A stretch of DNA of 36,030 bases, taken from positions 1 through 36,030 of the forward strand of contig JAKPDW010000073.1 in NCBI GenBank assembly GCA_029552245.1, read 5' to 3'. Every line of letters starts with the position of its first letter. Within the stretch, counting starts at the first letter, position 1. Below are positions 5,467 to 36,030 of this stretch, in pieces. The notes below the pieces were generated by a model, which was not told the DNA's origin, did not search any database, and saw only the letters and a program-made list of their open reading frames with translations. The translations under genes and the position numbers were made by a program. This DNA is from Deltaproteobacteria bacterium (lineage in GTDB: Bacteria > Desulfobacterota > Desulfomonilia > UBA1062).

Positions 5467-5470
5467 GGGT

Positions 5471-6442: not shown

Positions 6443-6443
6443 C

Positions 6444-7085: not shown

Positions 7086-8269
7086 GCCGCGTCCTCCTCG
7101 AGTGCCGGTGACAGGGGGTACCTCCCGTAGGTGCGCACCGCATCGACCATGACCCTCAGCTTGTGGGCCGGGATGGTGCTCAGGCTGTGCACCGGCGATA
7201 TGATGAACCTGCCCGAAGGCCCCAGCCTCGCGATGAGGCGCCTGACCTCCCGCACCACCTCCTCGTCGCGCGACCGGTCGGTGAGAAGGTAATCAACGCC
7301 CACCCCGCCGATGATCGTGACCTTGTCTCCGTGGAGTTCCTTTTCCTTGAAGATGTCCACGTTCGAGGTGGTCTCGTAGGCGTGCAGGCCGTCCACGCCC
7401 CACGAGATGAAGGTGTCGAAGAGCAGGGTGTTGTCGCCGCAGGAGTGGAGGACGTACTTGCCGTTCCTGTCGTGCACCGCCTTGATGATGCGCCTGTAGG
7501 AGGGGCCGAAGAGCTCGTCGATGAGCCTCGGGTTCATGATCGGCCCGCTCTTGAAGGCGAAGTCGTCCGTCTGGATGACTACCTTGACCCCTGCGTCCAG
7601 GAGGGCCATGTTCGTCTTCAGGCAGAGCTCCTCGTTGATCTCGATGAACCTCTTGACGAGATCCCTCTCGCGCCTGATCCAGAGCGGCAGCCTCTCGAAG
7701 CCCACGGCCCACAGGAGCGATTCCTGTATGCCGTAGGCGGATGCCTGCCCGAAGAGGCAGGCCCTGTGGCCGTATTTCTTCATCATGGCGCTGAAGAAAC
7801 GGTAGGCGCTGTGCGCCACGTCGTCGGCGTCCGGCCAGTACGGCCACTCCAGGAAGTCTTCCCGGGTCTTGAAGCACGGCTCCCGGTACATGTACGTCAT
7901 GTTGCCGTAGCCGTCCGGTTGCAGGTTGTACCGTGACCCCGTGAAGCGGACCATGGTGCGGTGGTCAGTCACGATGAAGGTCTCGTCGAGGATGGCCCAG
8001 ACCGCGTCGAAGCCAAGCTCCACCTGGGCCTTGATGCGCTTTTCCATGCTCCGGGTCACCTCGTGCTGGAACACGAGCTTGGTGAGAAGGGGCCCCCACC
8101 GGTCGAGGGCGAACGTGGCCACCGGGTTCACCAGGAGCCTCTCCTGGGACACGAGCGGCTTGCCCAGCACCTCGTTGTACGTGCGTCCCTCCACCATGGC
8201 GCAGAAGGCGGGTACGCGGTCCGTCTCCTTGCCCTCGAACGTCCTCAGGACGCGCTCGACAGGGTGCAT
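7082..8269 (-). CDS. UroD-family methyltransferase, substrate:corrinoid
   Basis: A 395-residue enzyme of the uroporphyrinogen-decarboxylase/methyltransferase superfamily and the first gene of the operon. H275-x-C277 in LHSCGDN supplies two candidate zinc ligands; the later position normally held by Cys is in SPVHSLS, so a His may complete the site. It most likely cleaves a methyl group from an O-, N- or S-methyl compound and loads it on the adjacent corrinoid protein. It is not an MttB-type (glycine betaine/trimethylamine) protein. The substrate cannot be named; aromatic methoxy compounds are one option for an anaerobe. AGGAGG (8275-8280) lies 5 bases before ATG 8269. Confidence 0.82.
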   Translation of the reverse strand: MHPVERVLRTFEGKETDRVPAFCAMVEGRTYNEVLGKPLVSQERLLVNPVATFALDRWGPLLTKLVFQHEVTRSMEKRIKAQVELGFDAVWAILDETFIVTDHRTMVRFTGSRYNLQPDGYGNMTYMYREPCFKTREDFLEWPYWPDADDVAHSAYRFFSAMMKKYGHRACLFGQASAYGIQESLLWAVGFERLPLWIRRERDLVKRFIEINEELCLKTNMALLDAGVKVVIQTDDFAFKSGPIMNPRLIDELFGPSYRRIIKAVHDRNGKYVLHSCGDNTLLFDTFISWGVDGLHAYETTSNVDIFKEKELHGDKVTIIGGVGVDYLLTDRSRDEEVVREVRRLIARLGPSGRFIISPVHSLSTIPAHKLRVMVDAVRTYGRYPLSPALEEDAA

Positions 8270-8329: not shown

Positions 8330-8620
8330 TGTCCGAAACCCTACAATCCCCATCAGGCACCATCCCTGCACAGCCGCGCTCACAGAAGGCGCCCAACAGC
8401 GCGGATCAAGAACCATCAGTCCCCTTCGACATGAACCCTTGTGGCGGGGCATCCGCGCAGCAGGCAACAGTCCAGGCCTTGCCCTATACCTTAAAAAACC
8501 TCACCAGATACCGTCCCCGTGGGGCTGCGCTTAAGGAGAGCTCCATACGGCGCAGTTCAAGAACCATCAGGCCCCTTTGGCACGAGCCCTTGCGGCGCCC
8601 GGCCTCCGCGCAGCACCCAC
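8330..8620. repeat. Imperfect 151-base tandem duplication upstream of the methyltransferase operon
   Basis: The block TCAAGAACCATCAG begins at 8406 and again at 8557, 151 bases apart, each followed by similar sequence ending CCGCGCAGCA. Weaker matches (CATCAGGCACCATCCC near 8351 and CACCAGATACCGTCCCC near 8502) extend the unit upstream with the same spacing. No cobalamin riboswitch box or convincing promoter was seen in 8281-8880. The rest of this 600-base gap contains GC-rich dyads such as GGCCGGCCGG but no credible gene. Confidence 0.55.
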
Positions 8621-11093: not shown

Positions 11094-11312
11094 GCCGTCA
11101 TCCCTCGGGAGAGGGTCTTGCCGCGCTGCGCCTGGGGCGCCCAGGATGCCCCTTATCCAAGCGCCTGCCGTCTCCCTCTAGAGGGACCTCGATCCAGGAG
11201 CGGTTCTCCCGGGCAGGTCAACATCTTCGAGGACCAGTCCGTGGGGCGAGGATTACAGCCCTCGATCCCGGAGCGGTTCTCCCGGGCAGACCGACCGCAG
11301 CCAGAAGTGGCA
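11094..11312. repeat. Degenerate direct repeats, period 73, with hairpin core
   Basis: CTCGATCC-GGAGCGGTTCTCCCGGGCAG begins at 11188 and 11261 (spacing 73, one mismatch in the core). A different part of the unit, GCCGTC followed by a TCCCTC-GAGGG dyad, occurs at 11094 and 11167, again 73 bases apart. GGAG and CTCC around CGGTT can form a hairpin in both copies. The gap 10984-11398 holds no gene that could be supported. Confidence 0.6.
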
Positions 11313-12136: not shown

Positions 12137-12247
12137 CCAAGTCCCTCCACACACGTGGTGTACCCGATAGGGCGCGGGTCGTCAACGTCACGCTCCCTGC
12201 CTCCCGGCCGCGGCCTCCCGCGACGGTTTGCACCCGCAGCCACCACG

Positions 12248-12360
12248 GGCCCTGTCATACACGAGCCAGCAGGAAAGTGGAGAAATCCCGGCGGGCCGTT
12301 CACCATGGCATGTACGTCGGGACCAGCCATACGCGAGTCAAGAGGAAAGTGGAGAAAACT
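12248..12360. repeat. Direct repeat pair, period 72
   Basis: CATAC-CGAG-CA-AGGAAAGTGGAGAAA occurs at 12256 and 12328, exactly 72 bases apart, with a few mismatches over about 31 bases. It lies in the 470-base gap between the divergent FCD regulator and zinc-ribbon genes. No palindrome was seen in the repeat. Confidence 0.6.
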
Positions 12361-12425
12361 CGATGGAGACCCACACCCGTTGACGCCTGAGGCGCAGTCA
12401 CACCTTTGGGGTTTTCTCTCCTCGA

Positions 12426-21412: not shown

Positions 21413-22333
21413 TCACGAGCCCCGCTTCTTCGCCAGGCCCAGCGCCTCCTTGATCCGGTGCACGCGCAAGGCCTTCTTCAGGGCCGGGATCCTCCCGGCC
21501 GCTTCGCTGTAGCCTGCGGCGATGTAGGCGTCGATGTCGTCGAACGCGTTCCACGCGGCGTCGCCCACCTCGGGGTGGATGACGAAATCGGCCTGCGCCG
21601 TCCTGAGGGTGTTCATGAAGAGCCTCGTGAGGTCGCCTGCGCGCACGAGTATGTCCAGGCTGTTGTCGATGTCCCGGCTGCCGTCGATGGGCTCGATGTC
21701 CCTCGACACGTCGACGCCCACCACGAAGCGCGCGCCCAGCACCCTGGCCGCAGAGACGGGGACCGACTCGGCCCACGCGCCGTCCACGCACACCATGTGC
21801 TCCACGCGCACCGGCGGCAGGAACCCGGGCACCGCGCTGGACGCCCTGACCGCGAGCCTGACGCTGCCCGAGCGCAGGATCTGCGGCAGGCCCGAGACGA
21901 GGTCCAGCGTCATGCACGCGAAGGGTATCATGAGCTCCGAGAAGTTCATGTCCGGCACGATCCTCTCCATGCCCTCGAGGAACGCGCCCTCGGCCACCAC
22001 CGATTCCCTGAACATGAAACGGTAGAAGAAGTATCCCTTGCGTACGCTCTCGAGGACCTTTTCCATGAAGCCGCGGTCAAGGTCGGAACCGGAGCCTGCG
22101 AACCGCTCCACCCTGCGCCTGAATTCCTCCGAGGTGAACGCCCTCCTGAGGGTGCGCTCCACCTCTTTCACGTCGAGGCTCGCGGCGTACAGGGATCCCA
22201 CGATGGCGCCCATGCTTGTGCCCGAGACGCAGGCGGGCTTCACGCCGGCATCGAGCAAGGCCTTCAGGGCGCCGACGTTCGCGAGTCCCCTCACCCCGCC
22301 GCCGCCCAAGGCCACGCCCACCTCATACGGCAT
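21413..22333 (-). CDS. Patatin-like phospholipase
   Basis: A 306-residue serine hydrolase of the patatin/RssA type. Visible are the oxyanion loop GGGGVRG (residues 10-16), the nucleophile elbow GTSMG with S40, and the catalytic aspartate in DGA (D184). There is no signal peptide, so it acts in the cytoplasm or at the inner face of the membrane. Its start overlaps the end of selA by 11 bases and its stop is one base before the GT-C protein, so three genes of unrelated function form one transcript. The lipid substrate is not known. Confidence 0.9.
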   Translation of the reverse strand: MPYEVGVALGGGGVRGLANVGALKALLDAGVKPACVSGTSMGAIVGSLYAASLDVKEVERTLRRAFTSEEFRRRVERFAGSGSDLDRGFMEKVLESVRKGYFFYRFMFRESVVAEGAFLEGMERIVPDMNFSELMIPFACMTLDLVSGLPQILRSGSVRLAVRASSAVPGFLPPVRVEHMVCVDGAWAESVPVSAARVLGARFVVGVDVSRDIEPIDGSRDIDNSLDILVRAGDLTRLFMNTLRTAQADFVIHPEVGDAAWNAFDDIDAYIAAGYSEAAGRIPALKKALRVHRIKEALGLAKKRGS

Positions 22334-23687
22334 GGCTGGTCACCTCGCGTATGATCCTGGCGAGCACCGGGATTTCCTGCCGGTCGACCGCCTTGAGGTC
22401 GAACACGAGCATGTCTTCCTCGATGCGGCAGACCACCGCGGGCCTGGCGGCCCTGAGGCCTGCGTGTACCCTGTTCGCCGACTCGTGCCTGAGCGCGACG
22501 CCGTAGGAGGCGAAGGTCTTCGTCGGCGCCGAACCGCCGCCCACCACCGCCCTGGTGGGCACGACGCGCGCCCCCTCGAGCTTCAGGAGACGGGCGAGCC
22601 TGGTGGCGCGTCGCTTTACCTCGGTCTCGGGCTCGGTGATCATCCTGAGCACCGGTATGCTGTCCGTCCTGCCCTGGGCCAACAGCCTCAGGGTTGCGCC
22701 CAGGGACGCTATGGTGAACTTGTCGACGCGCACCGCGCGGTGCAGCGGGTGCCTCGCCATCCTTTCCACCAGGTCGGACCTGCCCAGGATGATTCCAGCC
22801 TGGGGCCCGCCCAGGACCTTGTCCCCGCTGAAGCAGAGGACGTCCGCGCCCAGGGCGAGGCACGAGGGTACGGTCCACTCGTCCGTGATCCCCCACGGCG
22901 AGAGGTCGAAGGGCGTTCCCGAGCCCATGTCGACGAAGAAGGGCACCCCCGCCTCCCGCGCGAGAGCGGCCAGCTCGCCAAGGCCGACCTCGTCGGTGAA
23001 CCCCACGAGCGAGAAGTTGCTCCGGTGCACCTTCATGATGAGCCCGGTGTTCTCCCCCAGGGCCGACCGGTAATCGGACAGCCTCGTCTTGTTCGTGGTG
23101 CCCACCTCCCGCATGATCGCGCCGCTGAGCGCCATGACATCCGGCATGCGGAACGAGCCCCCTATCTCGACGAGCTCGCCCCGCGAGACGATGACTTCCT
23201 TTCCCCTCGCGAGGCTGGCGAGCACCAGCAGCACCGCGGCCGCGTTGTTGTTGACCACGAGCGCGTCCTGTGCGCCGAAGCAGGCCCTCGCCACGGGGCG
23301 GATGTGATCCTGCCGGGAACCGCGCCTGCCCTGGTCGAGCCGGTACTCGAGGTTCGTGTACCCGCCTGCGGCCTCGAGCGCCGCAAAGGATGCCTCCCTG
23401 GCGAGCGGCGCCCTGCCGAGGTTGGTGAACACCACCACGCCGGTCGCGTTGATCACGCGCACCAGGGCGGTCTCCATGAGGTCGCGGGCCTCGGCCGCCA
23501 CCGCCAGAGCCACTGCGGCCGCGTTCGGGCTCTCGCTAAGGCTGCCGGATGCGATCGCCCCCCTGATCGCATCCAGCCTGTTCTTCACGAAGCGCTTGAC
23601 GATCTCCCGGTCGTAGGGCAGGTCTCTCACGGCCGGCTCGGACAACACGACGTCCACCTTCGGAATGCTCCTGAATGCCTCGTTCAC
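22323..23687 (-). CDS. selA: L-seryl-tRNA(Sec) selenium transferase
   Basis: A 454-residue PLP enzyme that converts seryl-tRNA(Sec) to selenocysteinyl-tRNA(Sec). It has the SelA N-terminal domain (LPYDREIVKRFVKNRLDAIR), INATGVVVFTNLGRAPL, EYRLDQGRRGSR, and the PLP lysine K290 in CFSGDKVLGGPQAG. Length is normal. The start codon is GTG 23687 with GGGGAGG 5 bases upstream. Its presence means that the organism makes selenoproteins; selB, selC and selD are not in this window, and no in-frame TGA selenoprotein was found here. A promoter is placed at 23753-23780. Confidence 0.95.
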   Translation of the reverse strand: MNEAFRSIPKVDVVLSEPAVRDLPYDREIVKRFVKNRLDAIRGAIASGSLSESPNAAAVALAVAAEARDLMETALVRVINATGVVVFTNLGRAPLAREASFAALEAAGGYTNLEYRLDQGRRGSRQDHIRPVARACFGAQDALVVNNNAAAVLLVLASLARGKEVIVSRGELVEIGGSFRMPDVMALSGAIMREVGTTNKTRLSDYRSALGENTGLIMKVHRSNFSLVGFTDEVGLGELAALAREAGVPFFVDMGSGTPFDLSPWGITDEWTVPSCLALGADVLCFSGDKVLGGPQAGIILGRSDLVERMARHPLHRAVRVDKFTIASLGATLRLLAQGRTDSIPVLRMITEPETEVKRRATRLARLLKLEGARVVPTRAVVGGGSAPTKTFASYGVALRHESANRVHAGLRAARPAVVCRIEEDMLVFDLKAVDRQEIPVLARIIREVTSHAV

Positions 23688-23966: not shown

Positions 23967-24842
23967 ATGGCGAAGCCACGGATGATCGACCGCCACCTCT
24001 GTCACGGCAAGGACAAGGAGGAGAAGTACAAGGACCTCACCGCGCTCGACTACTGGTGGGGCCTCAGGGAGCTCGCAGCGGACTTCGACGTGGCCTGCTA
24101 CGAGAACGTCTCGGGGGGCGGCCTCACGCCGAGGCAGGAACGCGAGATCGCCTACATCCAGCTCCTCCATTACACGGTGGAGGTCAAGCTCGCGGGCGCC
24201 TTCTACCAAATCGAACTCATGGAACGCCTGTTCTCGCAGCCGCTCGGCGAGGGGGCGAGCCTCGACCTCAGGGTCTTCGAGGCGAAGGAGGCCTTCGACG
24301 CCCTGCACGGCGACCTCTACCAGGCGGTGTGCGCAGTGTCCAACGAGCTGTTCATGCTCCTCAACCGCGACGAGCTGGCCCCCATCAAGGTGGACCGCAC
24401 CAAGCCCATAGCCATGAGCCCATCGGACCTCAGGTACTGGCTCAAGATCAACCGCCACAAGGACTACATGGCGGTCTCCGAGATGATCGAGGCCTGCGAC
24501 GACCTCCTCGACATCCGCCACCACGCGACCCACTACGGCGCCGTCCCCGTGTACGCGAACCCCACAACCGGCGTGCTCTCCATCCAGAGGGACTTCCGCA
24601 TGGGCGCCATGCTCACCAAGTACGACCTGGCGAGGCACCTGAAGAAGGGCGGCCCCATGGAGACCCTCGTGGAGGCATCCAGGCCCAGGGCCTCCAAGCT
24701 CTGCGCACGCATCAACGAGATCTACGCCTTCATCTACCTCACGGACGTGTTCGAACAGTACATGGGAGACAGGGGGCTCGCCATCTCGAGCAGGTACGTC
24801 CCCTACTGGGAGCGCGTAGACCGGGGCGACCGAGGCGGCTAG
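23967..24842 (+). CDS. Uncharacterised helical protein with a HEPN-like Rx4H motif
   Basis: A 291-residue, apparently all-helical soluble protein not matched to a named family. Near its centre R184-HHAT-H189 (DIRHHATHYGA) fits the R-x(4-6)-H signature of HEPN domains, many of which are RNases in toxin-antitoxin or defence systems. The surrounding hydrophobic helices (YMAVSEMIEACDDLLD before, RASKLCARINEIYAFIYL after) suit such a fold. There is no antitoxin-like partner: the gene stands alone, divergent from selA. GAGAGGA lies about 5 bases before ATG 23967. HEPN membership is inference from one motif; other helical families remain possible. Confidence 0.4.
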   Translation: MAKPRMIDRHLCHGKDKEEKYKDLTALDYWWGLRELAADFDVACYENVSGGGLTPRQEREIAYIQLLHYTVEVKLAGAFYQIELMERLFSQPLGEGASLDLRVFEAKEAFDALHGDLYQAVCAVSNELFMLLNRDELAPIKVDRTKPIAMSPSDLRYWLKINRHKDYMAVSEMIEACDDLLDIRHHATHYGAVPVYANPTTGVLSIQRDFRMGAMLTKYDLARHLKKGGPMETLVEASRPRASKLCARINEIYAFIYLTDVFEQYMGDRGLAISSRYVPYWERVDRGDRGG

Positions 24843-25106: not shown

Positions 25107-27557
25107 TCAGGCTCGATGCCGATCCGCCGCGGCTGCGGAGAGCACCTTCCTCCCGAGGTACAGGGCCGCCAGGACGACCAGGGCGGCCATGCTGACCGCG
25201 AGCCCCGCGTAGAAAGACAGCGGCCGGTACACCATGCTCACCACGTGGGAGCCTGCGGGCACGGGTACGCCCCTGAGGATGAGGTCCGCCTTCACCACAG
25301 GCGCCTCCCTGCCGTCCACGTACGCCCTCCAGCCCGGGTAGAAGAGCTCGCTCAGAATGAGGAGGGAGTTCGTCGGGCTTTGTGTCCTCACCTCGATGCG
25401 CTGTGGCTCGTAGCGCACGACGGTCGCACCCGATGCGCCCTGTCCCCCCTTGGCGGGAGCATCCGGCACCCCCGCTATCAGGCGGTCCTTCTCCTCGAGC
25501 ACGACCGAGCGCGCCGGGTCGAAGCGCGGGTCTTTGAGGTGCGCCAGGGCTTCATCACGGCCGCCTGCATATACCACGTCATGCACGAGCACCGCCCTCG
25601 GCTGGTAAACGGGGGCTTCCTTCGCTAAGATTCCGCCGTTCTCTTCTAGGCACACCGCGTATTTGACCCCCAGGATCCTCGAAGAGAAGACCCTGTCCCC
25701 CAAGAACACCCCGAGCGCCAGCGTGTGCCTCGTCACTGTCATGAGAGGCACGGCGGCCATGTCGTGCACGAAACGGTAGAAGTCCCTGAGCACGATGGGG
25801 TTGTACCCGTTCAGGTTCTGGTATCCCTTGGCCATGCCCCTCAACGGGCTGTACTCGACGTCGAGGTTCGCCGGGTAGGCGACGCGGAAGGCATGTGGCG
25901 TGAAATCCTTGTCCTGCGCGAGGAACCTCTCGATCTCGTTCGGCTCGAGCAGCGTCTTTTCTCTGTGCAGGGGGATAGCCGAGGCGTAGGTCGAAGCGAG
26001 ATCCACGAAGACCAGGAGCACGAGCCCGTAGACAGGGGCCTTCCAGCCCGACCTCAGGGTCCAGACGCAGAGGCCGCAGGCTGCGCAGAGAAAGGCGAAA
26101 GACACAAGGACCTGGCGCGAGAGGATGGGGACGGTAAAGACCAGCGACCCCGCGACGAGGAGCACGAGGATCACCGCCCACGCGCCCGTGACGACCGCCC
26201 CTGCGGTACGCGACCTCGTCCTGTCCATGAGCGAGTCGACCCCCATGCCTGCGAAGACCGCGAGGGTGAGGACCAGGAACACCACGGCCCTCGAAGGTAT
26301 CCGGAACGTTGCGAACCCGGGCACGAGGCCGTAGAGCACGCGGTACAGGGGCGTATAGCTGCCGAGCATGACGACCAGCGAGAGCCCCATGACCGCAAGC
26401 AGCGCGGCCCTCCCCTTCCTGCCACGTGACATGGCCGCGCCCAGGGCAGCCAGCACGACGCCGGCCACGCCCAGGTACCCGGAGAGCTCCCAGCTGAGAA
26501 TGAGTTGCCGGAAGGGGATATGGGCCTCGCCCCACTCGATCGGGGTCAGCTGGGGCTTTGGCACGAGGAAGGTGAAGAGGCACTGGGGCGGGTACGAGAA
26601 CCCGGTGGCGAACGTGTACGACTTCTCGGCCCTGTCGCACAGGCCGAGGAACTCGACCGAAGGGATGACCTGCACCGCAGCCACCGAGAACGCCACGGCC
26701 ATGAAGGCAGCGAACCTCGCGGCAAGGCCGAGGGCGGGTCTTGCCGATGACTTCCGGACCCCGGGAAACCCCCTCACCACGACGTACACCGCGGTGAAAA
26801 ACAGGGTGTAGAACGAGTTCTGAGGCTCTCCGCCGAGGATCTGGATGCCGAAGACGAGCCCCGCGAGCGCGTAATGCCGCCACCGCCCCGAGTCGAGGGC
26901 CTTCTCGAGCGCGAGCAAAACCCACGGGATGAGCGCTGCGGTGTGGATCATGGTGAGGTGCCCGGCGTAGATCTTGTCCATGAAGTAGCCGCACATGCCG
27001 TACGACAGGGCGGAGAATGCCGCCGCAGCCCCGTTCGACGTGAGGCGCATTGTGAGCGCGTACGCGCCGAGGGAGGCCACGAGCACGTGGAGCACGACAT
27101 CCAGGTTGAACGCCCACGGGAGGGGAAGGGTCACGAACAGGAGCGTGGAGGGGTAGAACACGAAGGTCTGCGGGTTGGCCAGGAAGGGGTGACCGCAGTA
27201 GTAGTGCGGGTTCCACAACGGGACCTGCCCGTGGCGGATGCTCTCCCTGGTGAACGTCTCGAACCAGTAGAAGTAGGCCCTCACGTCGATGCCTGCGATG
27301 AAGGCGTCCCCGCGCGGGATCACCTTTACGCCGAAGAACGCGAGCATCAACGTCACGACGAGCACCACCGGCCACGCCCTGCCCCAAAAGGCCATGGCGC
27401 CCGAAGGCAATGCCGGCACCGCGTCCGGGTGCGTCCCCTCTGGGCTTCCCTCGTTCGGTGCGCGAGACGGGCCCCCTTGCACCTCAGGCCTTGTCGCCCG
27501 CTCCTTGACGGCCCTGCCCGCCCCCTTCTCGCCGATACCCTTCTTCCCCGACTTCAC
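25107..27557 (-). CDS. YfhO-like GT-C membrane glycosyltransferase (copy 1)
   Basis: An 816-residue polytopic protein of the YfhO family. After a basic, disordered N-terminus of about 55 residues the first helix is followed by an extracytoplasmic loop with GIDVRAYFYWFETF and VPLWNPHYYCGHPFLANPQ, a YfhO hallmark. About ten more helices follow, then a soluble C-terminal domain with LSELFYPGWRAYVDG and a final helix. YfhO proteins take a sugar from polyprenyl phosphate and add it to a surface polymer. ATG 27557 overlaps the TGA of the paralogous gene upstream. The paralogue and a CsbB-like enzyme at 31341 support this role. Confidence 0.8.
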   Translation of the reverse strand: MKSGKKGIGEKGAGRAVKERATRPEVQGGPSRAPNEGSPEGTHPDAVPALPSGAMAFWGRAWPVVLVVTLMLAFFGVKVIPRGDAFIAGIDVRAYFYWFETFTRESIRHGQVPLWNPHYYCGHPFLANPQTFVFYPSTLLFVTLPLPWAFNLDVVLHVLVASLGAYALTMRLTSNGAAAAFSALSYGMCGYFMDKIYAGHLTMIHTAALIPWVLLALEKALDSGRWRHYALAGLVFGIQILGGEPQNSFYTLFFTAVYVVVRGFPGVRKSSARPALGLAARFAAFMAVAFSVAAVQVIPSVEFLGLCDRAEKSYTFATGFSYPPQCLFTFLVPKPQLTPIEWGEAHIPFRQLILSWELSGYLGVAGVVLAALGAAMSRGRKGRAALLAVMGLSLVVMLGSYTPLYRVLYGLVPGFATFRIPSRAVVFLVLTLAVFAGMGVDSLMDRTRSRTAGAVVTGAWAVILVLLVAGSLVFTVPILSRQVLVSFAFLCAACGLCVWTLRSGWKAPVYGLVLLVFVDLASTYASAIPLHREKTLLEPNEIERFLAQDKDFTPHAFRVAYPANLDVEYSPLRGMAKGYQNLNGYNPIVLRDFYRFVHDMAAVPLMTVTRHTLALGVFLGDRVFSSRILGVKYAVCLEENGGILAKEAPVYQPRAVLVHDVVYAGGRDEALAHLKDPRFDPARSVVLEEKDRLIAGVPDAPAKGGQGASGATVVRYEPQRIEVRTQSPTNSLLILSELFYPGWRAYVDGREAPVVKADLILRGVPVPAGSHVVSMVYRPLSFYAGLAVSMAALVVLAALYLGRKVLSAAAADRHRA

Positions 27558-29923
27558 CGCCTTTTCCCCCCACGCCGTCTTCCCTGAGGCCCGCCTTCCC
27601 TTGGGGCCGCACCGTCATCGCCACCCTGCAGGCCGGCTGGCGCGGCCGCTTCAGGCTCCGCCGAGGGCCTCCTCTTCGCCCACAGCAGGCATGCAGCGAG
27701 GGCGACGAGCGTCACGAGCGTTACGGCGAGGCCGGCCATGAAGCTCGCAGGCCTGTACACCATGGTCACCGCGTGCGTGCCTGCACGCAGCGGTACCGCC
27801 CTGAGCAGGTAGTCGGCCCTGAGGACGGGCGCGCGCTTCCCGTCGACGTATGCCTTCCACCCGGGGTAGTACAGCTCGCTCAAGAGAAGGTATGACGCCA
27901 AAGGGGATGAGGCCTCGATCTCCATCCTGTCAGGCCCGTAGGAGACCATCCTCACCGAGTCCGCAGGCCCCGCATCTTTTCCGGCCTGAGCGATCTCCCC
28001 CAGGTGACCGGGGTCCGCCTTCTCGAGGAGCACGACATCCAGGGGGTCGAACCCCGGGTCTTTGAGTATGGCGAGGTGGTCTCGATAGTCAGGCACCACC
28101 TTCACCTTGTGGACGAGACGGGCCCTCGGCATGTACCAGTCCGCCCGCAGGAGTCGCCACCCCTGGCCTGTCATGGCGACGGCGTACTTGACCCCGAGGA
28201 TCTTCGAGCTGAAGACGCGGCCCTCGGTGAAGACGTCCATGCCGAGCGTGTGCCTGGACATCACGGGCGGCTCCACCCCGGCCATGGCATGGACGAACCG
28301 GTAGTAGTCCATGACCGCTGCCTGCACGTACCCGCCCGCGTTCTCGTACCCCTTCACGTTGCAGCGTGACGCGAGGGGTGAAAGCGGCACTTCGGGATTC
28401 AACGAGATGGGCACCATGACGCGGTAGTCGCCCGCAGGGCCGGCGATGACCTTCTCGAAGTCTTCGTCCCGGGTGAGCTCGGCCTCGTTGATGACCGGTA
28501 TCCCTGGCGCATACACCAGGAAGAGGTCCGCGAACATGAAGAAGAGAACCAGAGCGAGGGCCGGGACCTTCCACTTCCTCAGCGCGAGAGAGGCCACTGC
28601 CGCCGAGCCCAGAAAGACGAACGCGTAGGCGTGGGTCATGGAAGGCGCCAGCAGCGGGACGTCGTAGAAGAGCGGCCCGAAGGCAAGCAGCGCGGCGAGG
28701 ACGAGCCCGGAACAGGAGGCGAGGAGCGCGATCTTCTTCCCGTCGCGCTCTTCCCACAGGTACGAAGCGCCGAAGGACACGAGCAGGGAAAGGAAGAACA
28801 CCGCTATCGTGAGCGCCCGCGCAGGCACCCTGAAATTGCCCAGGAGCGGGATGAACTCGTAGTAGAGCCGGTACAAGGGGGTGTACCCACCCAACACGAA
28901 GGTCATCGTCACCGCGAGCAGCAGGGCGACGACCCATGCCTTCCTCCTGTGTCTTGCCGAAAAGACCCCAATGCCCGCGAGGGCGAGGGCGATGACCCCG
29001 CAGTACCCGCCCAACTCCCAGAACGTGGCGATCTTGCGCGTCTCCGGGTGCGGGACCAGGAGGGTGTACAGGAGTGAACCCCCGAACGACCCGTTCACGG
29101 CGAACTCGTAGGTCTTCTCCGCCCTGTCGGACAGGGCGATGAACTCGGCCACAGGCAGCAGGAATACGGCGGACACGCCGAACGACACGGCGGGCACGAG
29201 GAGAAACCAAAGGCAGTAAGCCGCAAAGCGCTTCAGGCCGGAAAAGCCGAAGCGCGACACGTAGCGCACAGGCAGGTAGAGACACAGCAGCACGCACACG
29301 TAGAAGATGATCTGGGTGTTCCCGGTCAGGATCAGCAGGCCCAGGAGGGCGCCCGCAAGGGCGAACAGGCCGGGCCTGTCCTCCTCGAACACCCGCTCCA
29401 TGGCGAGGAAGACAAAGGGGATAACGGCCGCGGAATGGATGAAGGTGAGGTGGCCTCCGTATATCCTTTCGAACAGCTGGCCGTTGAACGTGTACACGAG
29501 GGCGGCCGTGAGCGCCCCGGCCGAAGAGCCCGTCATGCGGCGCGCCAGCAGGTACATCCCCACCCAGCACGCGAGCAGGTGCAGCACGAGGTCGATGTTG
29601 AAGGCCCAAGCAAGGGGGAAGATCACGTACAGGGCGATCGGCGGGTAGAAGACGAAGTTCGCCGGGTTCGCGGCGAACGGGTGGCCAGAGTACATGTGGG
29701 GGTTCCACAGGGGAAAGGTGCCTGACAGCACGTGATCCTTGAAGAAACGGATGCACCAGTAGTGGTGGTCCTTGACGTCGATGCCGCCTATGAAGGAACC
29801 GCCCAGGGGCAGCGCCCTGGCCTCCAGGAAGGCGCCGACCAGCACAAGGCCCAAAAGGCCGCACGCAAGGACCGGGTGCCGCGCGGGAAAGGACAACCGT
29901 GGGGCCTCACCCATCCCCTTCAC
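27554..29923 (-). CDS. YfhO-like GT-C membrane glycosyltransferase (copy 2)
   Basis: A 789-residue paralogue of the next gene with the same layout: first helix, GIDVKDHHYWCIRFF, FPLWNPHMYSGHPFAANPAN, LALSDRAEKTYEF-like loop, and LSELYYPGWKAYVDGKRAP near the end. The two differ along their whole length, so the duplication is old and the acceptors or donors may differ. The frame starts at GTG 29923; ATG 29914 is an alternative. It lies 66 bases downstream of the aminotransferase. The C-terminal tail after the last helix is charged and rich in glycine and arginine. Confidence 0.8.
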   Translation of the reverse strand: MKGMGEAPRLSFPARHPVLACGLLGLVLVGAFLEARALPLGGSFIGGIDVKDHHYWCIRFFKDHVLSGTFPLWNPHMYSGHPFAANPANFVFYPPIALYVIFPLAWAFNIDLVLHLLACWVGMYLLARRMTGSSAGALTAALVYTFNGQLFERIYGGHLTFIHSAAVIPFVFLAMERVFEEDRPGLFALAGALLGLLILTGNTQIIFYVCVLLCLYLPVRYVSRFGFSGLKRFAAYCLWFLLVPAVSFGVSAVFLLPVAEFIALSDRAEKTYEFAVNGSFGGSLLYTLLVPHPETRKIATFWELGGYCGVIALALAGIGVFSARHRRKAWVVALLLAVTMTFVLGGYTPLYRLYYEFIPLLGNFRVPARALTIAVFFLSLLVSFGASYLWEERDGKKIALLASCSGLVLAALLAFGPLFYDVPLLAPSMTHAYAFVFLGSAAVASLALRKWKVPALALVLFFMFADLFLVYAPGIPVINEAELTRDEDFEKVIAGPAGDYRVMVPISLNPEVPLSPLASRCNVKGYENAGGYVQAAVMDYYRFVHAMAGVEPPVMSRHTLGMDVFTEGRVFSSKILGVKYAVAMTGQGWRLLRADWYMPRARLVHKVKVVPDYRDHLAILKDPGFDPLDVVLLEKADPGHLGEIAQAGKDAGPADSVRMVSYGPDRMEIEASSPLASYLLLSELYYPGWKAYVDGKRAPVLRADYLLRAVPLRAGTHAVTMVYRPASFMAGLAVTLVTLVALAACLLWAKRRPSAEPEAAAPAGLQGGDDGAAPREGGPQGRRRGGKRR

Positions 29924-29989
29924 CCATGCACCGAGCAGCCGCCAGCATCCCCTCCCCCTTGCGCGCCTTCGTCCCGCACGCGGAATCTT

Positions 29990-31126
29990 TCACGCGAGAC
30001 CGTAGAATGCCATTACCTCGTGCGCCACCCGCTGCACGTCCTTCTCCCCCATGTCGAAGTAGAGCGGCAGGCGCACCAGGCGCTCGCTCGTCTCCTCCGT
30101 CACGCGCATGGTGGACGATACCCTGCCGTACTTTCTGCCCGCCGGCGACGAGTGCAGCGGCACGTAGTGGAACACGGCGAGGATACCCCTTTCCTTCAGA
30201 CGGCCGATGAGCCTCGTCCGCTCCTCGAGGGATGCCGTGATCAGGTAGAAGATGTGGCCGTTTCCGGCCATGCCTTTGCCGAGGTAGGGCAGACGCGCGC
30301 ACCCCCTGTCCTGGAGCGGCCTCAGGGCGTTGTAGTAGAGGTCGAACAGGAAACGCCTCTTGGCCACGATGCGCTCCGCGTTCTCCATCTGGGCGAAGAG
30401 GAAGGCGCTCACGAGCTCGCTCGGCAGGTAGGACGACCCGATGTCCACCCAGGTGTACTTGTCCACCTCGCCCCTGAAGAACTGCGCCCTGTCCGTGCCC
30501 TTCTCACGGATGATCTCGGCGCGCTTGACGAACCTCTCGTCGTTTACGAGCAGGGCCCCACCCTCTCCGCTTATGATGTTCTTCGTCTCGTGGAAGCTCA
30601 GGCAGCCGAAGGTGCCCAGCGTGCCGAGGTACTTCCCCTCGTACTGGGAGAGGAGCGCCTGGGCTGCGTCCTCGATCACGAGGAGGCCGTGCCTTCGCGC
30701 CACGTCGCAGATCGTGTTCATCTCGCAGGGGACGCCTGCGTAGTGCACGGGCACGACAGCCTTGGTGCGCCGTGTCACGGCCTGTTCGACGAGGGTCTCG
30801 TCCATGTTCAGGGTGTCGGGCCTGATGTCTATGAAGACAGGCACCCCTCCCCTGAGCACGAAGGCGTTCGCGGTGGACACGAAGGTGAACGAGGGCACGA
30901 TCACCTCGTCGCCGGGGCCGATGTCCGCGAGGATGGAGGCCATCTCGATCGCCGCCGTGCAGGAGTGCGTGAGCAGGGCCTTGGTGCAGCCGAGCTTCTC
31001 CTGCAGCCACCCGTGGCATCGCCTCGTGAAGTAGCCGTCGCCCGCGAGCTGGCCCCTGACCACCGCCTGGGCTATGTTGTACAGCTCCCTGCCCGCCACG
31101 AACGGCTTGTTGAACGGAATGTCCAT
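29990..31126 (-). CDS. wecE: dTDP-4-amino-4,6-dideoxygalactose transaminase
   Basis: A 378-residue PLP sugar aminotransferase. It follows E. coli WecE/RffA closely along its length: IPFNKPFVAGREL, LAGDGYFTRRCHGWL, LTHSCTAAIEMA, PGDEVIVPSFTFVSTANAFVLRGG, EDAAQALLS, the PLP lysine K182 in SFHETKN, and REKGTDRAQFFRGEVDKYTW. It would make a 4-amino-4,6-dideoxy sugar nucleotide (Fuc4N type) from the 4-keto sugar. ATG 31126 matches the family N-terminus; ATG 31141 is possible. No wecD-type acetyltransferase or rmlA/rmlB is nearby, so precursor synthesis must be elsewhere. It leads the minus-strand glycan operon. Confidence 0.9.
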   Translation of the reverse strand: MDIPFNKPFVAGRELYNIAQAVVRGQLAGDGYFTRRCHGWLQEKLGCTKALLTHSCTAAIEMASILADIGPGDEVIVPSFTFVSTANAFVLRGGVPVFIDIRPDTLNMDETLVEQAVTRRTKAVVPVHYAGVPCEMNTICDVARRHGLLVIEDAAQALLSQYEGKYLGTLGTFGCLSFHETKNIISGEGGALLVNDERFVKRAEIIREKGTDRAQFFRGEVDKYTWVDIGSSYLPSELVSAFLFAQMENAERIVAKRRFLFDLYYNALRPLQDRGCARLPYLGKGMAGNGHIFYLITASLEERTRLIGRLKERGILAVFHYVPLHSSPAGRKYGRVSSTMRVTEETSERLVRLPLYFDMGEKDVQRVAHEVMAFYGLA

Positions 31127-31219
31127 ATCAAACCCATGCATCCTGCCGGAATCGCTTCACCTATCATTACCTCGCAAACCCCGCATCGTGCAAGTCCGAT
31201 GAGCACCGTTCACAGTACG

Positions 31220-31287
31220 TTCCCTCGCAGGGAAGAGCTTGACTTTCTCTTTGAGGGGTTACGCGCTTCGACATGCTGTGATAGAAT
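31220..31287 (+). promoter_or_regulatory. Divergent control region of the glycan cluster: palindrome and extended -10
   Basis: TTCCCT-CGC-AGGGAA at 31220-31234 is a perfect inverted repeat in the 214-base gap between wecE and the plus-strand genes. TG-A-TAGAAT at 31279-31287 is a good extended -10 for the plus strand, about 54 bases before ATG 31341. No clear -35 was seen, as is allowed for extended -10 promoters. The palindrome could coordinate both directions. Confidence 0.45.
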
Positions 31288-31340
31288 CGAATGCGAATCT
31301 TGCCAAATGGTATCATGGACATCCCCGGTTGGGGTGCATC

Positions 31341-32288
31341 ATGCATGACATGAGTGAACGGGCAGTTACGATATCGGTGGTGATACCCGTCTACCAGGCC
31401 GAGGCATGCTTGCATGAACTGCACGAGCGGCTCACCAGTGTATTGAGAACACTGGGGCCGGATTACGAGATCGTTCTCGTCGAAGACAGGGGCCAGGACC
31501 GCTCCTGGGAGGTCATCCGGGAAATCGCCGGGAAAGACCCGAGGGTGAAGGCCGCCAGGCTCAGCAGGAACTTCGGACAGCACCATGCGATCGCCGCCGG
31601 GTTGGACATGTGCAAAGGCGAGTGGGTGGTGATCATGGACTGCGACCTCCAGGACAGGCCCGAAGAGATCCCACGGCTCTACGAAAAGGCACTCTCAGGC
31701 CACGACATCGTGCTGGCGCGAAGAGCGGAAAGGCAGGATGGGGTTGTCAAACGGCTTTTTTCCAAAACCTTCTATGCTGTACTCTCATACCTGACGGAAA
31801 CAAGAATGGATCCCAGCATCGGTTCGTTCCGCATCATGTCCCGCAAGGTCGTACGTGAGCTGTCGAAAATGCACGAGCAGACCAGGTTCTTCGGCGGTCT
31901 CGTCAACTGGCTCGGATTCAGTTCGACCACGGTGGACGTGGAGCACGCGCCCAGGATGCACGGAAAGACCTCCTACAACCTGAAAAAGCTCGTACGCCTG
32001 GCGGTCGGGGCCATTCTCGCCTTTTCCGACAAGCCGTTGAGGCTTGCCGTCCAGCTGGGTTTCCTCATTTCCTTTTTGTCCATGTGCTTCGGGGTATATG
32101 CGGTCATTACCAAGCTGATGCACCCGTCTGTACAGCTCGGCTGGACGAGCCTCATTGTTTCCATATACTTCATGGGCGGTCTCGTGATAGGCGTAATCGG
32201 CATATGCGGGCTGTACATAGGGAAGATCTTCGAAGAGGTGAAGAGGCGACCGCTTTACGTGATAGACGAGAAGATCAATGCCGACTGA
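31341..32288 (+). CDS. CsbB/ArnC-like polyprenyl-phosphate glycosyltransferase (GT2)
   Basis: A 315-residue membrane-anchored glycosyltransferase. The GT2 domain has ISVVIPVYQAEA, the metal-binding MDCDLQDRPEEIP, GSFRIMSRK and the terminal MHGKTSYNLKKL. Two transmembrane helices follow (LAVQLGFLISFLSMCFGVYAV and SLIVSIYFMGGLVIGVIGICG). This architecture is shared by CsbB, ArnC and GtrB, which move a sugar from a nucleotide to polyprenyl phosphate on the cytoplasmic face. In Bacillus CsbB feeds YfhO, and YfhO-like genes are present here. ATG 31341 has GGGGTG upstream; ATG 31350 is possible. Its end overlaps the ATP-grasp gene by 11 bases. Confidence 0.88.
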   Translation: MHDMSERAVTISVVIPVYQAEACLHELHERLTSVLRTLGPDYEIVLVEDRGQDRSWEVIREIAGKDPRVKAARLSRNFGQHHAIAAGLDMCKGEWVVIMDCDLQDRPEEIPRLYEKALSGHDIVLARRAERQDGVVKRLFSKTFYAVLSYLTETRMDPSIGSFRIMSRKVVRELSKMHEQTRFFGGLVNWLGFSSTTVDVEHAPRMHGKTSYNLKKLVRLAVGAILAFSDKPLRLAVQLGFLISFLSMCFGVYAVITKLMHPSVQLGWTSLIVSIYFMGGLVIGVIGICGLYIGKIFEEVKRRPLYVIDEKINAD

Positions 32289-33480
32289 CTCGACCAAGAG
32301 AATCATGATAGTGGCAGGCGGAGAATGGCAGGTCCCGCTCATCAGGAAGGCCAAGGACATGGGGCTGTTCGTCGTGAACACGAACCTCTACGAGGACTCG
32401 CCCGGCTTCAGGTACGCCGACGTGGGAGTCGTTGCAGACGTGCTCGACAAAGAACGAAACCTCGAGATCGCGAGGAAGTACCGGCCTGATGCCATCGTCA
32501 CGGACCAGACAGACATCGCAGTCCCGACCGTTGCCTACCTTTGCGAAAAGATGCGCCTGCCCGGGATCGGCATGAGGGCCGCGACCCTCTTCACCGACAA
32601 GTACGCCATGAGGACGTTCCTGAAAGATCACGGGTTCTCCACGCCCGCATTCATGCTCTGCAAAACAATGGAAGACGCATTGGAGTTCGCTGATGAACAC
32701 GGATACCCCTTGGTCATAAAGCCACCGGCCAGCCAATCGAGCAGGGGGGTGCACAAGGTGACGTCTGAGGAAGACCTCCGTGCAAGCTACACGGACACCC
32801 TGAGGTTCAGCCCTGCGGGATGCATCCTCGCGGAGGAGTACATCGAAGGCGTAGAGTTCACGGTCGAGGGGTTCAAGACAGCGGAAAAGGCCTACTCGCT
32901 CGTGGTATCGAAAAAGAGGCCGTTCAGGCACTCGGAGATGATAGCATCGCGGCTTCTCTACCGCCACTGGGACCCGGACTTCGATTATCCCCAGCTCATG
33001 GAACTCAACGAGCGGATCGTCACCTGTATGGGCCTGCCCTTCGGCATCACACATGCCGAGTACAAGTGTCGAGACGGGACGTTCTACCTCATCGAGATAG
33101 CGGCCCGCGGGGGAGGGACGAAGATATCGTCTCACATCGTCCCCGAGATGACGGGTCTCGATATAAACGAGCTCCTCATCAGGTGCGCCTTGGGAGAGCA
33201 CATAACCGAGATCCACTTCGAACGCAGGGACCACTGTGTCGTCCTCGAGTTCCTTCTGTTCGACCCCGGAAAGGTCGCGTCAATCTCCGGCATCGATTGG
33301 CTCTCTTCGAACGACTCGATCATCGACTTCGGCCTGAACTTCGGTGTGGGAGACGTGCTTGCCCCGCCGTCAGACGACAGGTCTCGGCACGCCTACCTCA
33401 TCGCGAGGGCTGAAACGCCGGGGGACATAGAAAGGATCCTGAACGAGGCAAGGACAAGGGTGACCATCACGTACGCATAA
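32278..33480 (+). CDS. ATP-grasp carboxylate-amine ligase-like protein
   Basis: A 400-residue enzyme. The N-terminal pre-ATP-grasp domain begins IMIVAGGEWQVPLIRKAKDMG. The ATP-grasp fold follows: YPLVIKPPASQSSRGVHKV (phosphate loop and lysine), CILAEEYIEGVEFTVEGF, and FYLIEIAARGGGTKISSHIVPEMTG. The last motif has the E-x-A-x-R form of amino-acid ligases in place of the common E-x-N-x-R. It probably activates a carboxylate as acyl phosphate and joins it to an amine; the amino sugar made by WecE is an attractive acceptor, but neither substrate can be read from the sequence. It overlaps the glycosyltransferase by 11 bases. Confidence 0.78.
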   Translation: MPTDSTKRIMIVAGGEWQVPLIRKAKDMGLFVVNTNLYEDSPGFRYADVGVVADVLDKERNLEIARKYRPDAIVTDQTDIAVPTVAYLCEKMRLPGIGMRAATLFTDKYAMRTFLKDHGFSTPAFMLCKTMEDALEFADEHGYPLVIKPPASQSSRGVHKVTSEEDLRASYTDTLRFSPAGCILAEEYIEGVEFTVEGFKTAEKAYSLVVSKKRPFRHSEMIASRLLYRHWDPDFDYPQLMELNERIVTCMGLPFGITHAEYKCRDGTFYLIEIAARGGGTKISSHIVPEMTGLDINELLIRCALGEHITEIHFERRDHCVVLEFLLFDPGKVASISGIDWLSSNDSIIDFGLNFGVGDVLAPPSDDRSRHAYLIARAETPGDIERILNEARTRVTITYA

Positions 33481-33516
33481 AAGGAATCTCAACACATAAG
33501 CGAAGGGGGTACAACG

Positions 33517-34173
33517 GTGGATTCCCACGAGTGGAAGGAAAAGATCATCGATTACATCAAGAGAAACAGGGTCTCCTCCACCGAGGTGGCGGACTGCCTC
33601 GGTAAGACCGGCGCCGTGCCGGATGTCAGGCCCATAAGCGAAGGACATTTCAGGGTCGGGAACGTCTTCTGGGCGTATGCCTACGGAGAGAGCAACTGGG
33701 ATGTGCACGAACGGCTCCAGCACGTACAGGAGGGCGACGTGGCCCTCGTAGAGGTGTTCGACTGCAAGGACAGGGCCGTTTTCGGTGACCTCGTGTCCAA
33801 GTTCCTCATCCTGTACAGGCAGGTCTCGGCGATCGTGGTGAGGGGGTATCTCAGGGACGCACACCGTCTCATCAAAGAACGATGGCCGATATGGTGCACG
33901 GGGTTCAACCCTGTCGGGTGCTTCAACCAGAAGGTCGACACCCCCTTCGACCGAGACACCTTCGAAGACCGTCTGAGACGGTACCACGGGGCGATCGGCG
34001 TGTGCGACGATACGGGCGTGGTCATCATCCCCAAGGAGCATCATACCGAGGAGTTCTTCCATAAGCTCGAGTTCATAGAACAGCAGGAAGACATCTGGTA
34101 CGAGTGCATCGACAGGAGAAAATGGACGACCTTCGAGACGGTGTGCCTCAAGAAGTATGCAGACAAGGCCTGA
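33517..34173 (+). CDS. RraA-like / HMG-CHA aldolase-fold protein
   Basis: A 218-residue protein with the RraA fold. The N-terminal VSSTEVADCLGKTGAV matches the start of RraA and of 4-hydroxy-4-methyl-2-oxoglutarate aldolases. The substrate region FGDLVSKFLILYRQVSAIVVRG is followed by the conserved R-D pair in YLRDAHRL, then WPIWCTGFNPVG. The R-D pair is needed for metal and oxo-acid binding in the aldolases, so an enzyme is plausible; RraA proper is an RNase E inhibitor and is less likely in this setting. An extra C-terminal part of about 60 residues is not in the core family. GTG 33517 has GGGGG upstream. Confidence 0.7.
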   Translation: MDSHEWKEKIIDYIKRNRVSSTEVADCLGKTGAVPDVRPISEGHFRVGNVFWAYAYGESNWDVHERLQHVQEGDVALVEVFDCKDRAVFGDLVSKFLILYRQVSAIVVRGYLRDAHRLIKERWPIWCTGFNPVGCFNQKVDTPFDRDTFEDRLRRYHGAIGVCDDTGVVIIPKEHHTEEFFHKLEFIEQQEDIWYECIDRRKWTTFETVCLKKYADKA

Positions 34174-34196
34174 AACAGGAGGCGGCAGGGCAGGAA

Positions 34197-35036
34197 ATGC
34201 ACAGCGATGAGACAGGGCGCGGGGAACCCACCCCCGTTGTTCCCATCTTCGACGCGCTGACACATCCCACCATCACCGGGGGGTGGACCCCCGGGCGCCC
34301 TCAGACATCGGCCCACATGGACCGCCTGAAGGAGCAGATGGATCTTCATGACGTGAAGTGGGCCCTGGCCGTTGGCATGGAAGGGATCGGCGGCTATGCC
34401 GAAGACGAGTTCGCCAGTTTCGTGAGAAGGGGCTCGGACAGGCTCTTGCCAGTGGCGTTCTTGAACCCTTCACGGTTCGGCCCACGCAGGGATCTTTCCC
34501 GCCATGTCTCCTCCTTGAGAGACAAGGGGTACGTCGGGATAAAGATCCACCCGAGGCTTTCCCACACCCCCCTTACCCACCCGAACCTCCCGGCGGCCGT
34601 GAACGAGGCGGCAGAACAGGGCCTGGTGACCCTCATTTGTACGTATCCGTATGCCCCCGGGATGGACAGGGACACATACGCCCTGGACGCGCTCGTGTCC
34701 CTCCTCGACAAGACGAAAGGGTGCAAGGTGATCCTCCTTCATGCCGGTTGCGTGCGTCTCCTCGAGATGATCGAGATCGCGAGGCTCTTCGACGACGTTC
34801 TCCTGGATCTTTCCTTCACCATCTGCAAGTACGCGGGAAGCTCCATCGACCTGGACATAGCCTATGCGTTCAGGCAATTTGACAGGAGGGTATGCATAGG
34901 TTCCGACTTCCCGGAGTTCGATCTCAAGCTTTTGAGAGAGCGGTTCAGTGCATTTGCCGACGGCCTTCCCGGAGAGAAGATCGAGAACATCGCCTACAAG
35001 AACTTGCTGAACTTCATGGGAGACATCGTACTATGA
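34197..35036 (+). CDS. Amidohydrolase-2-like TIM-barrel protein with an altered metal site
   Basis: A 279-residue protein of the amidohydrolase_2 superfamily, which includes decarboxylases, hydratases and lactonases acting on oxo acids. Seen are D19-ALT-H23 (FDALTHPT), KIHPRLS, VILLHAGC and GSDFPEF with D237 at the last strand. The usual H-x-H of strand 1 is L-x-H, so one metal ligand is missing; the metal site must be mononuclear and altered, or lost. ATG 34197 is 23 bases after the RraA-like gene, with AGGAGG upstream. Its stop overlaps the methyltransferase start (ATGA). RraA-like and amidohydrolase proteins also occur together in 4,5-protocatechuate pathways. Confidence 0.7.
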   Translation: MHSDETGRGEPTPVVPIFDALTHPTITGGWTPGRPQTSAHMDRLKEQMDLHDVKWALAVGMEGIGGYAEDEFASFVRRGSDRLLPVAFLNPSRFGPRRDLSRHVSSLRDKGYVGIKIHPRLSHTPLTHPNLPAAVNEAAEQGLVTLICTYPYAPGMDRDTYALDALVSLLDKTKGCKVILLHAGCVRLLEMIEIARLFDDVLLDLSFTICKYAGSSIDLDIAYAFRQFDRRVCIGSDFPEFDLKLLRERFSAFADGLPGEKIENIAYKNLLNFMGDIVL

Positions 35037-35713
35037 AACTTTCCGGCCATGATGTCGACCTCGTCATCACCAGGTACAGGGAACGGCTCGGCAGATACGG
35101 GTACTCACCCAAGACCCTGGGGTGGGACAAGGGCAAGCAGGAGGTCAGGTTCGAGATGCTCACATCGCTCCACGAGTGCGAAGGCAAAAGCTTTCTCGAC
35201 ATCGGGTGCGGGTTCGGAGACCTCGTCCTTACCCTGGAGAAGAAGTGCTCATCGTTTCGCTACTACGGTATCGACCTCGTGCCCGACCTGGTGGAGATCG
35301 CTCGACAGAGGCACGCGAAAGCACACTGCCGCTTTGCGGCCATGGATTTCCTCGAGGCGACGATCGACGAGACCTTTGACATAGGCATAGCTTCCGGGGT
35401 GTTCAACTTCAGGCTCGAGAGGGGTGACAACTACGCCTTCGTGAGGGCGGTCATGGAAAAGGCCCTTAGCCTGTGTTCGGAAGGCATAGCGTTCGACTTC
35501 CTGTCCGACAAGGTGGACTACAGGTATGAGCACACCTTTCACTACAGCCCGGAGAGGATCCTCGAGATGGGCTACTCGTTCTCGCGCAACGTCGTGTTGA
35601 GAAACGACTATATGCCCTTCGAGTTCTGCCTGTTCATCTTCAAGGACGACTCCTTCTCCAAGGACGACACCCTCTTCAACCGCTACAAGAGGTTTTCCCC
35701 CGGAAAGCGGTGA
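35033..35713 (+). CDS. SAM-dependent methyltransferase, class I
   Basis: A 226-residue enzyme with a Rossmann-fold SAM-binding domain: motif I FLDIGCGFGDLVL (residues about 54-66), motif II YYGIDLVPDLVEIA with the acidic residue for the ribose, and FAAMDFLE. Later come IGIASGVFNF and the helical SPERILEMGYSFS. It starts at ATG 35033 in an ATGA overlap, so it is translationally coupled to the amidohydrolase-like gene. In this operon it most likely O- or N-methylates a sugar or its acyl decoration. It is the last gene before the insertion sequence, only 20 bases from its end. Confidence 0.82.
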   Translation: MKLSGHDVDLVITRYRERLGRYGYSPKTLGWDKGKQEVRFEMLTSLHECEGKSFLDIGCGFGDLVLTLEKKCSSFRYYGIDLVPDLVEIARQRHAKAHCRFAAMDFLEATIDETFDIGIASGVFNFRLERGDNYAFVRAVMEKALSLCSEGIAFDFLSDKVDYRYEHTFHYSPERILEMGYSFSRNVVLRNDYMPFEFCLFIFKDDSFSKDDTLFNRYKRFSPGKR

Positions 35714-35996: not shown

Positions 35997-36030
35997 ATGA
36001 GTAAGAGGAAGGGTAATGACGGGGCGTGTT
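35997..36030 (+). CDS. N-terminus of a probable transposase (partial)
   Basis: An ORF beginning MSKRKGNDGAC continues off the right edge. AAGGAGG lies just upstream, inside the hairpin at 35937-35992. Identification as a transposase comes only from its place next to an insertion-sequence terminus. Confidence 0.4.
   Translation, partial: MSKRKGNDGAC

Follow-up and report, generated by a model that had tools for sequence, protein, structure and literature searches.

An ATP-grasp/RraA gene module beside WecE may take the place of a WecD-type acyltransferase in the tailoring of 4-amino sugars

The stretch of DNA that we analyzed (36,030 nucleotides from a deltaproteobacterium; hereafter the window) contains, between positions 25107 and 35713, eight reading frames, all of them intact. 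Three are on the minus strand: two encode YfhO-like membrane proteins that are candidate GT-C glycosyltransferases (YfhO-like 1, 25107–27557, Pfam YfhO score 74.6 bits; YfhO-like 2, 27554–29923, 67.0 bits and approximately 12 hydrophobic segments; cut-off 28.5 bits for both), and the third encodes WecE, the dTDP-4-amino-4,6-dideoxygalactose (Fuc4N) transaminase (29990–31141). The five on the plus strand encode an ArnC/PgfS-like GT2 enzyme, which is a predicted polyprenyl-phosphate sugar transferase (31341–32288); an ATP-grasp carboxylate-amine ligase with a LAL_C2 domain, which is a predicted amide ligase (32278–33480; ATP-grasp_4 and LAL_C2 both above cut-off); a protein of the RraA/HMG-aldolase fold (33517–34173; Pfam RraA-like 66 bits, cut-off 24.5); an Amidohydro_2-like protein, AH, in which the HxH metal motif is altered to LxH (34197–35036; Pfam 33 bits, cut-off 26.4); and a SAM-dependent methyltransferase, MT, with a conserved SAM motif (35033–35713; above the Pfam cut-off). 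All eight genes listed in the original prediction, which was made from the letters of this DNA, are thus confirmed. Because the GT2 and ATP-grasp frames overlap, as do the AH and MT frames, and because the other gaps in the plus-strand set are 23–36 bases, these genes likely constitute a five-gene operon. The intergenic region from which wecE and the operon diverge (31142–31340) was predicted to be a shared control region of 214 bases; it measures 199–208 bases, the GT2 gene starting with the ATG at 31341 or that at 31350. This region contains no convincing promoter, the sole sigma-70-like match being located at the GT2 start, where it carries no weight. (Note that the contig stops at 36030, where a further frame has run for only about 30 bases; this frame, at 35999–36030, starts with MSKRKGNDG and may belong to an IS-type gene at which the assembly broke.)

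Elsewhere in the window, a corrinoid methyltransfer cluster on the minus strand (3949–8269) encodes a RACo activator, two URO-D type methyltransferases, and a B12-binding protein, and a gene for the selenocysteine synthase SelA (22323–23687, minus strand) raises the possibility that the genome uses selenocysteine. A 291-amino-acid protein with no Pfam match is encoded at 23967–24842 on the plus strand; in G007, a genome of the window's family, a gene adjoining a SelA-like gene (L046, 14115–14987) encodes a protein with a similar start. Imperfect direct repeats occupy intergenic positions 8345–8597, 11187–11289, and 12246–12362.

Judged by equivalog score, WecE of the window is a true dTDP-Fuc4N aminotransferase: it scored 593 bits against NCBIfam equivalog NF008687 (cut-off 375) and 565 bits against TIGR02379 (cut-off 435), and the solved structures nearest to it are those of WecE-type enzymes. 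The Arn equivalog thresholds were not reached (ArnB, 205 bits against a cut-off of 631; ArnC, 192 bits against 529). RmlB scored above its cut-off in the same genome. The GT2 enzyme ends in the two hydrophobic C-terminal helices that had been predicted for it and is of the DPM/ArnC/PgfS type, reaching no equivalog cut-off (its PgfS score was 244 bits). Membership of this family would fit the loading of a sugar onto polyprenyl phosphate.

The other plus-strand proteins retain residues that bear on their likely chemistry. In the ATP-grasp protein K148, E186, E261, E273, and R277 are invariant among 12 sequences, Lys, Glu, and Arg at such positions being typical of the fold, and the C-terminal domain is of the L-amino-acid-ligase type (LAL_C2 in Pfam); we infer that the protein may act as an amide ligase on an amino sugar. 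The RraA-like protein has an Arg-Asp pair (R113-D114) that is present in all 18 of the related proteins encoded at loci of this kind. In HMG/CHA aldolase the arginine of the pair R123-D124 stabilizes the pyruvate enolate and the aspartate binds the metal (PMC5065237). The residue three past the pair, which is acidic in the canonical motif, is not conserved, and in a tree the 18 proteins form a clade apart from 12 sampled RraA-fold proteins with support of 100/100 and long branches. All curated aldolase cut-offs were far from being reached (47 bits against a cut-off of 179 for the HMG/CHA aldolase families), and because these scores are low the reaction may be an aldol or retro-aldol reaction or a decarboxylation; we predict that the protein is either a class II aldolase acting on pyruvate or a decarboxylase. 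In AH, H22, K115, H181, and D236 are invariant across five loci, so that one histidine of HxH, the strand-6 histidine, and the aspartate of the GSD motif are kept. The first histidine of HxH is replaced by leucine in the window and in L017, a locus from Hydrogenedentota, and is kept in L030, L054, and L055. An FDxLTHPT motif is common to AH of the window, L017, and G950, and this LTHPT variant looks conserved enough to be functional. MT is linked in five loci, with its SAM motif kept.

The RraA-like gene is rare, being found in 2 of the 24 genomes of the window's family and, at high similarity, in 2 of 395 genomes of a phylum sample (those of the window and G326). A scan of 84,980 species genomes gave 13 RraA-like loci with 59–81% identity, which belong to Hydrogenedentota, Lachnospiraceae, Bacteroidales, and one deltaproteobacterium, and at all 13 the ATP-grasp gene is directly upstream of the RraA-like gene. 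L017 has the gene order of the window (GT2, ATP-grasp, RraA, AH, MT), with wecE 2 kb downstream. In G022 (locus L029), which is from the window's own family, wecE is divergent from GT2, ATP-grasp, and RraA genes that run to the contig end, and in G326 the order is different (wecE, GT2, MT, and ATP-grasp, followed at intervals by AH and RraA). AH and the same MT are missing from the close loci of Bacteroidales and Lachnospiraceae. In four of the five close Bacteroidales loci a DegT aminotransferase gene is upstream of the ATP-grasp and RraA genes, either directly (L026) or with one gene between (L023, L024, and L027), this gene encoding a class I aminotransferase according to Pfam in L023 and L024 and to a matching start in L027; in L025 a DegT gene is located about 7 kb away. 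(The DegT frame of L023, at 5866–7554, has a DUF559 endonuclease-like domain in its middle, which could be an insertion or an assembly artefact.)

A wider search extended this set to two Lachnospiraceae, G485 and G597, in which the ATP-grasp, MT, AH, and RraA genes are inside islands. In G485 they stand in the order ATP-grasp, MT, AH, RraA within a pseudaminic acid (Pse) island in which PseB, PseC, and PseG exceed their cut-offs and which also encodes a PIG-L deacetylase and a PtmA-like reductase; the island genes of G597 resemble those of G485 by start sequence and homology only. Flagellin and Maf-like genes are nearby in both. Both genomes retain a PseH-like acetyltransferase and are without a true WecE, and thus the acylated position may differ there. 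In addition, G950, which is from the order of the Bacteroidales carrier G429, has AH, ATP-grasp, and RraA together with PseI above its cut-off, and in G715 RraA is accompanied by a DegT aminotransferase and a divergent ATP-grasp protein (25% identity). No relatives were found among the viral contigs and plasmids that were searched. Near the genes of one Lachnospiraceae locus, a cytidylyltransferase is fused to an HMGL-like aldolase domain (L022, 13781–16147), the two being separate genes in L020; the fusion led us to consider a phosphonate pathway in these neighborhoods, an idea that we rejected since PEP mutase was absent among the genes scanned.

The fact that gene order changes while gene content is kept points to a functional link rather than to recent shared ancestry. 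Judged by the enzyme families present, what these loci have in common is a set of enzymes for a 4-amino-6-deoxyhexose or for one of its sugar derivatives, and the best reading of the ATP-grasp and RraA genes, often with AH and MT, is that they form a transferable tailoring module. Two expectations of the original prediction were borne out here, namely that the ATP-grasp, RraA-like, AH, and MT genes should co-occur, as they do in several relatives (L017, G326, G485, and, in part, G950), and that they should be linked to WecE, which is found together with GT2 and ATP-grasp/RraA in G022, L017, and G326. That the module also resides in pseudaminic acid and flagellin islands had gone unnoticed; given these occurrences it seems to be a general cassette for the tailoring of amino sugars and not an extension of a CsbB/YfhO system.

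True WecE was present in all 10 close carriers outside the Bacteroidales, compared to 1 of 14 control genomes. Among Lachnospiraceae, where 135 of 397 genomes (34%) have WecE, the close carriers with WecE numbered six of six, for which the chance is approximately 0.0015 if genomes are independent, which related genomes are not; because WecE is common in this group, the six-of-six count is weakened. WecE above the cut-off was absent from the three distant Lachnospiraceae carriers.

Of the 24 genomes of the window's family, seven have WecE, and these seven divide perfectly into two sets. In five of them a WecD-like GNAT gene lies about 40–1080 bases from wecE, the best family match of its product being WecD, the dTDP-Fuc4N acyltransferase (E 1e-15, under the cut-off). 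The other two, the window's genome (G000) and G022, have no WecD-like GNAT, and both carry ATP-grasp and RraA genes adjoining wecE. Thus five genomes have the GNAT only, two the module only, and none has both or neither, a split that with fixed totals would arise by chance 1 time in 21 (the numbers being small and G022 only 80% complete). An ArnC-like GT2 with 31–33% identity to that of the window is part of the WecE/GNAT block in G007, G020, and G023; the stretches that were read for G003 and G019 showed no such gene. The simple reading of this exchange, together with the family of the ligase, is that the ATP-grasp enzyme performs the N-acylation that is carried out by the GNAT in sister lineages. 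That the module takes the place of a WecD-type acyltransferase was not part of the original prediction.

We put at roughly 60% the probability that the cluster is a Fuc4N branch with a transferable acyl-tailoring module in place of the WecD-type N-acetyltransferase. According to this reading, RmlB and WecE, as identified by family score, would make dTDP-Fuc4N, and the RraA-like class II aldolase, with AH and MT, would make or modify a small hydroxy- or keto-carboxylic acid, as its catalytic residues and the gene linkage suggest. The ATP-grasp ligase would then activate this acid with ATP and couple it, as an amide, to the sugar at its 4-amino group, in place of acetylation. The GT2 enzyme, going by its family, would transfer the decorated sugar onto polyprenyl phosphate, a flippase encoded elsewhere would turn the lipid-linked sugar over, and its transfer to a surface polymer or protein would fall to a GT-C protein, for which one or both YfhO-like proteins are weakly supported candidates here. 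The sequences show the identity of the genes, their linkage, the exchange with the GNAT, and the conservation of catalytic residues, and a sugar-tailoring role for the module is well supported; the specificity and substrate of the ligase, the structure of the acid, the order of the steps, and the role of YfhO are what we infer. More tentatively, and at somewhat less than even odds, the module may be a horizontally spread cassette of at least four phyla that couples an acid made by RraA-fold pyruvate aldol chemistry, through ATP-grasp amide ligation, to the 4-amino group of 4-amino-6-deoxyhexoses and nonulosonic acid precursors in the glycosylation of surface glycans and flagellin, replacing GNAT N-acetyltransferases.

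In a special case of the Fuc4N reading, the RraA-like enzyme would make a 4-hydroxy-2-oxo acid that an aminotransferase converts to a hydroxy-amino acid, which the ligase then joins to the sugar. Consistent with this idea, class I aminotransferase genes adjoin the module in L017, L023, L024, and L027 (in the last by matching start) and the ATP-grasp protein bears an L-amino-acid-ligase C-terminal domain. However, the window's cluster, G326, and the flagellin islands all lack such a class I aminotransferase, the islands having an SDR and an aldo-keto reductase in its stead, and we regard this variant as rather unlikely.

The original prediction had cast the YfhO proteins as a defining part of the system, and it is improbable that the five genes and the two YfhO genes form one dedicated lipid-linked glycosylation system of the CsbB/YfhO type in which YfhO is obligatory. 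The adjacency in the window, the ArnC/PgfS-like GT2, and the presence of YfhO and RraA in the same 2 of 24 family genomes would all fit such a system, but the adjacency was seen in the window and in no relative examined. The YfhO nearest to the window's in G022 (42% identity) is on another contig, amid other sugar genes; none was found in the neighborhoods of the first 14 loci or, by BLAST, in the loci outside the family that were examined later; and two large membrane proteins, one in L017 and one adjoining wecE in L057, have no Pfam match. The two YfhO-like proteins of the window share 40% identity, and the AlphaFold model of the second is poor (pLDDT 44). The link to YfhO is weak, and what stands of the prediction as a whole is that an ArnC/PgfS-like GT2 would load a decorated sugar of the Fuc4N type, on the strength of a WecE that scores as genuine and of its linkage in relatives. 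As for a flippase, the frames of 25–36 kb include no small multi-helix gene and the window, up to the contig end, no EamA-like frame. Tandem small EamA-type proteins (ArnE/ArnF-like) are encoded next to wecE in L017, with similar ones in L028, and a single EamA protein in G020; in L020 (4588–6129) an FrhB-type iron-sulfur protein encoded near GT2 carries a fused GtrA membrane domain.

It is very unlikely that the product of the module is an unattached small molecule or a lipid head group with no connection to the sugar, and that chance or island structure has placed the module near wecE: RraA-fold, AH, and ATP-grasp proteins are versatile and the loci are variable polysaccharide islands, but linkage to 4-aminosugar enzymes recurs in different orders in four phyla and the module swaps with a WecD-like GNAT.

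The logic of the pathway is already known, the acylation module is not; among open-licence papers we found neither one that brings these protein families together nor a described system with this set of genes. As in the WecE–WecD branch of enterobacterial common antigen, a WecE equivalog would make dTDP-Fuc4N and an acylation step is expected next, but here ATP-grasp and RraA (with AH and MT) stand in place of WecD, and the GT2 is ArnC/PgfS-like and not WecF-like. The ArnB–ArnC–ArnE/F–ArnT system for Ara4N likewise combines an aminotransferase with an ArnC-like GT2, and the EamA-type proteins of L017 and L028 add to the likeness; unlike that system, the cluster is predicted to handle Fuc4N, has no ArnA formylase or ArnT, and includes the acyl module. 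The pairing of an amidohydrolase-superfamily protein with an RraA-fold aldolase is found in LigJ and LigK of protocatechuate 4,5-cleavage; these are catabolic, whereas the module lies beside amino-sugar genes and its RraA clade is separate from the sampled RraA-fold proteins. The acyl group of the Treponema denticola flagellin glycan is reportedly methoxy-trihydroxyhexanoyl, which a pyruvate aldol could explain (a lead only). The multi-component transmembrane glycosylation systems CsbB–YfhO and PgfS–PgfM (PMC8035078) share a GT2 with C-terminal helices and YfhO-family proteins, but here no GtrA flippase was found, WecE and tailoring genes are present, and YfhO is unlinked in relatives. The nearest experimental precedent for the module is the Shewanella sfmABCDE genes, which include ATP-grasp and methyltransferase genes. 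Without them flagellin is not normally modified with its nonulosonic acid, which bears a 236-Da group that can be methylated (PMC3765264). The likeness lies in the ATP-grasp and SAM methyltransferase genes, which Shewanella needs in order to place such a group on an amino sugar; in that system RraA and amidohydrolase are unreported, NeuB-like and TPP-dependent enzymes are present, and the target is flagellin.

Since the same gene set recurs in four phyla, the findings suggest that the module is a portable way of decorating surface sugars. The origin of the unusual N-acyl groups on bacterial surface amino sugars is mostly unknown, and two signature genes, those for the ATP-grasp protein and the module clade of RraA, would allow such sugars to be predicted from genomes of Deltaproteobacteria, Hydrogenedentota, Lachnospiraceae, and Bacteroidales. 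Moreover, the module would assign a function to a clade of the RraA fold and supply ligases for making acylated amino sugars.
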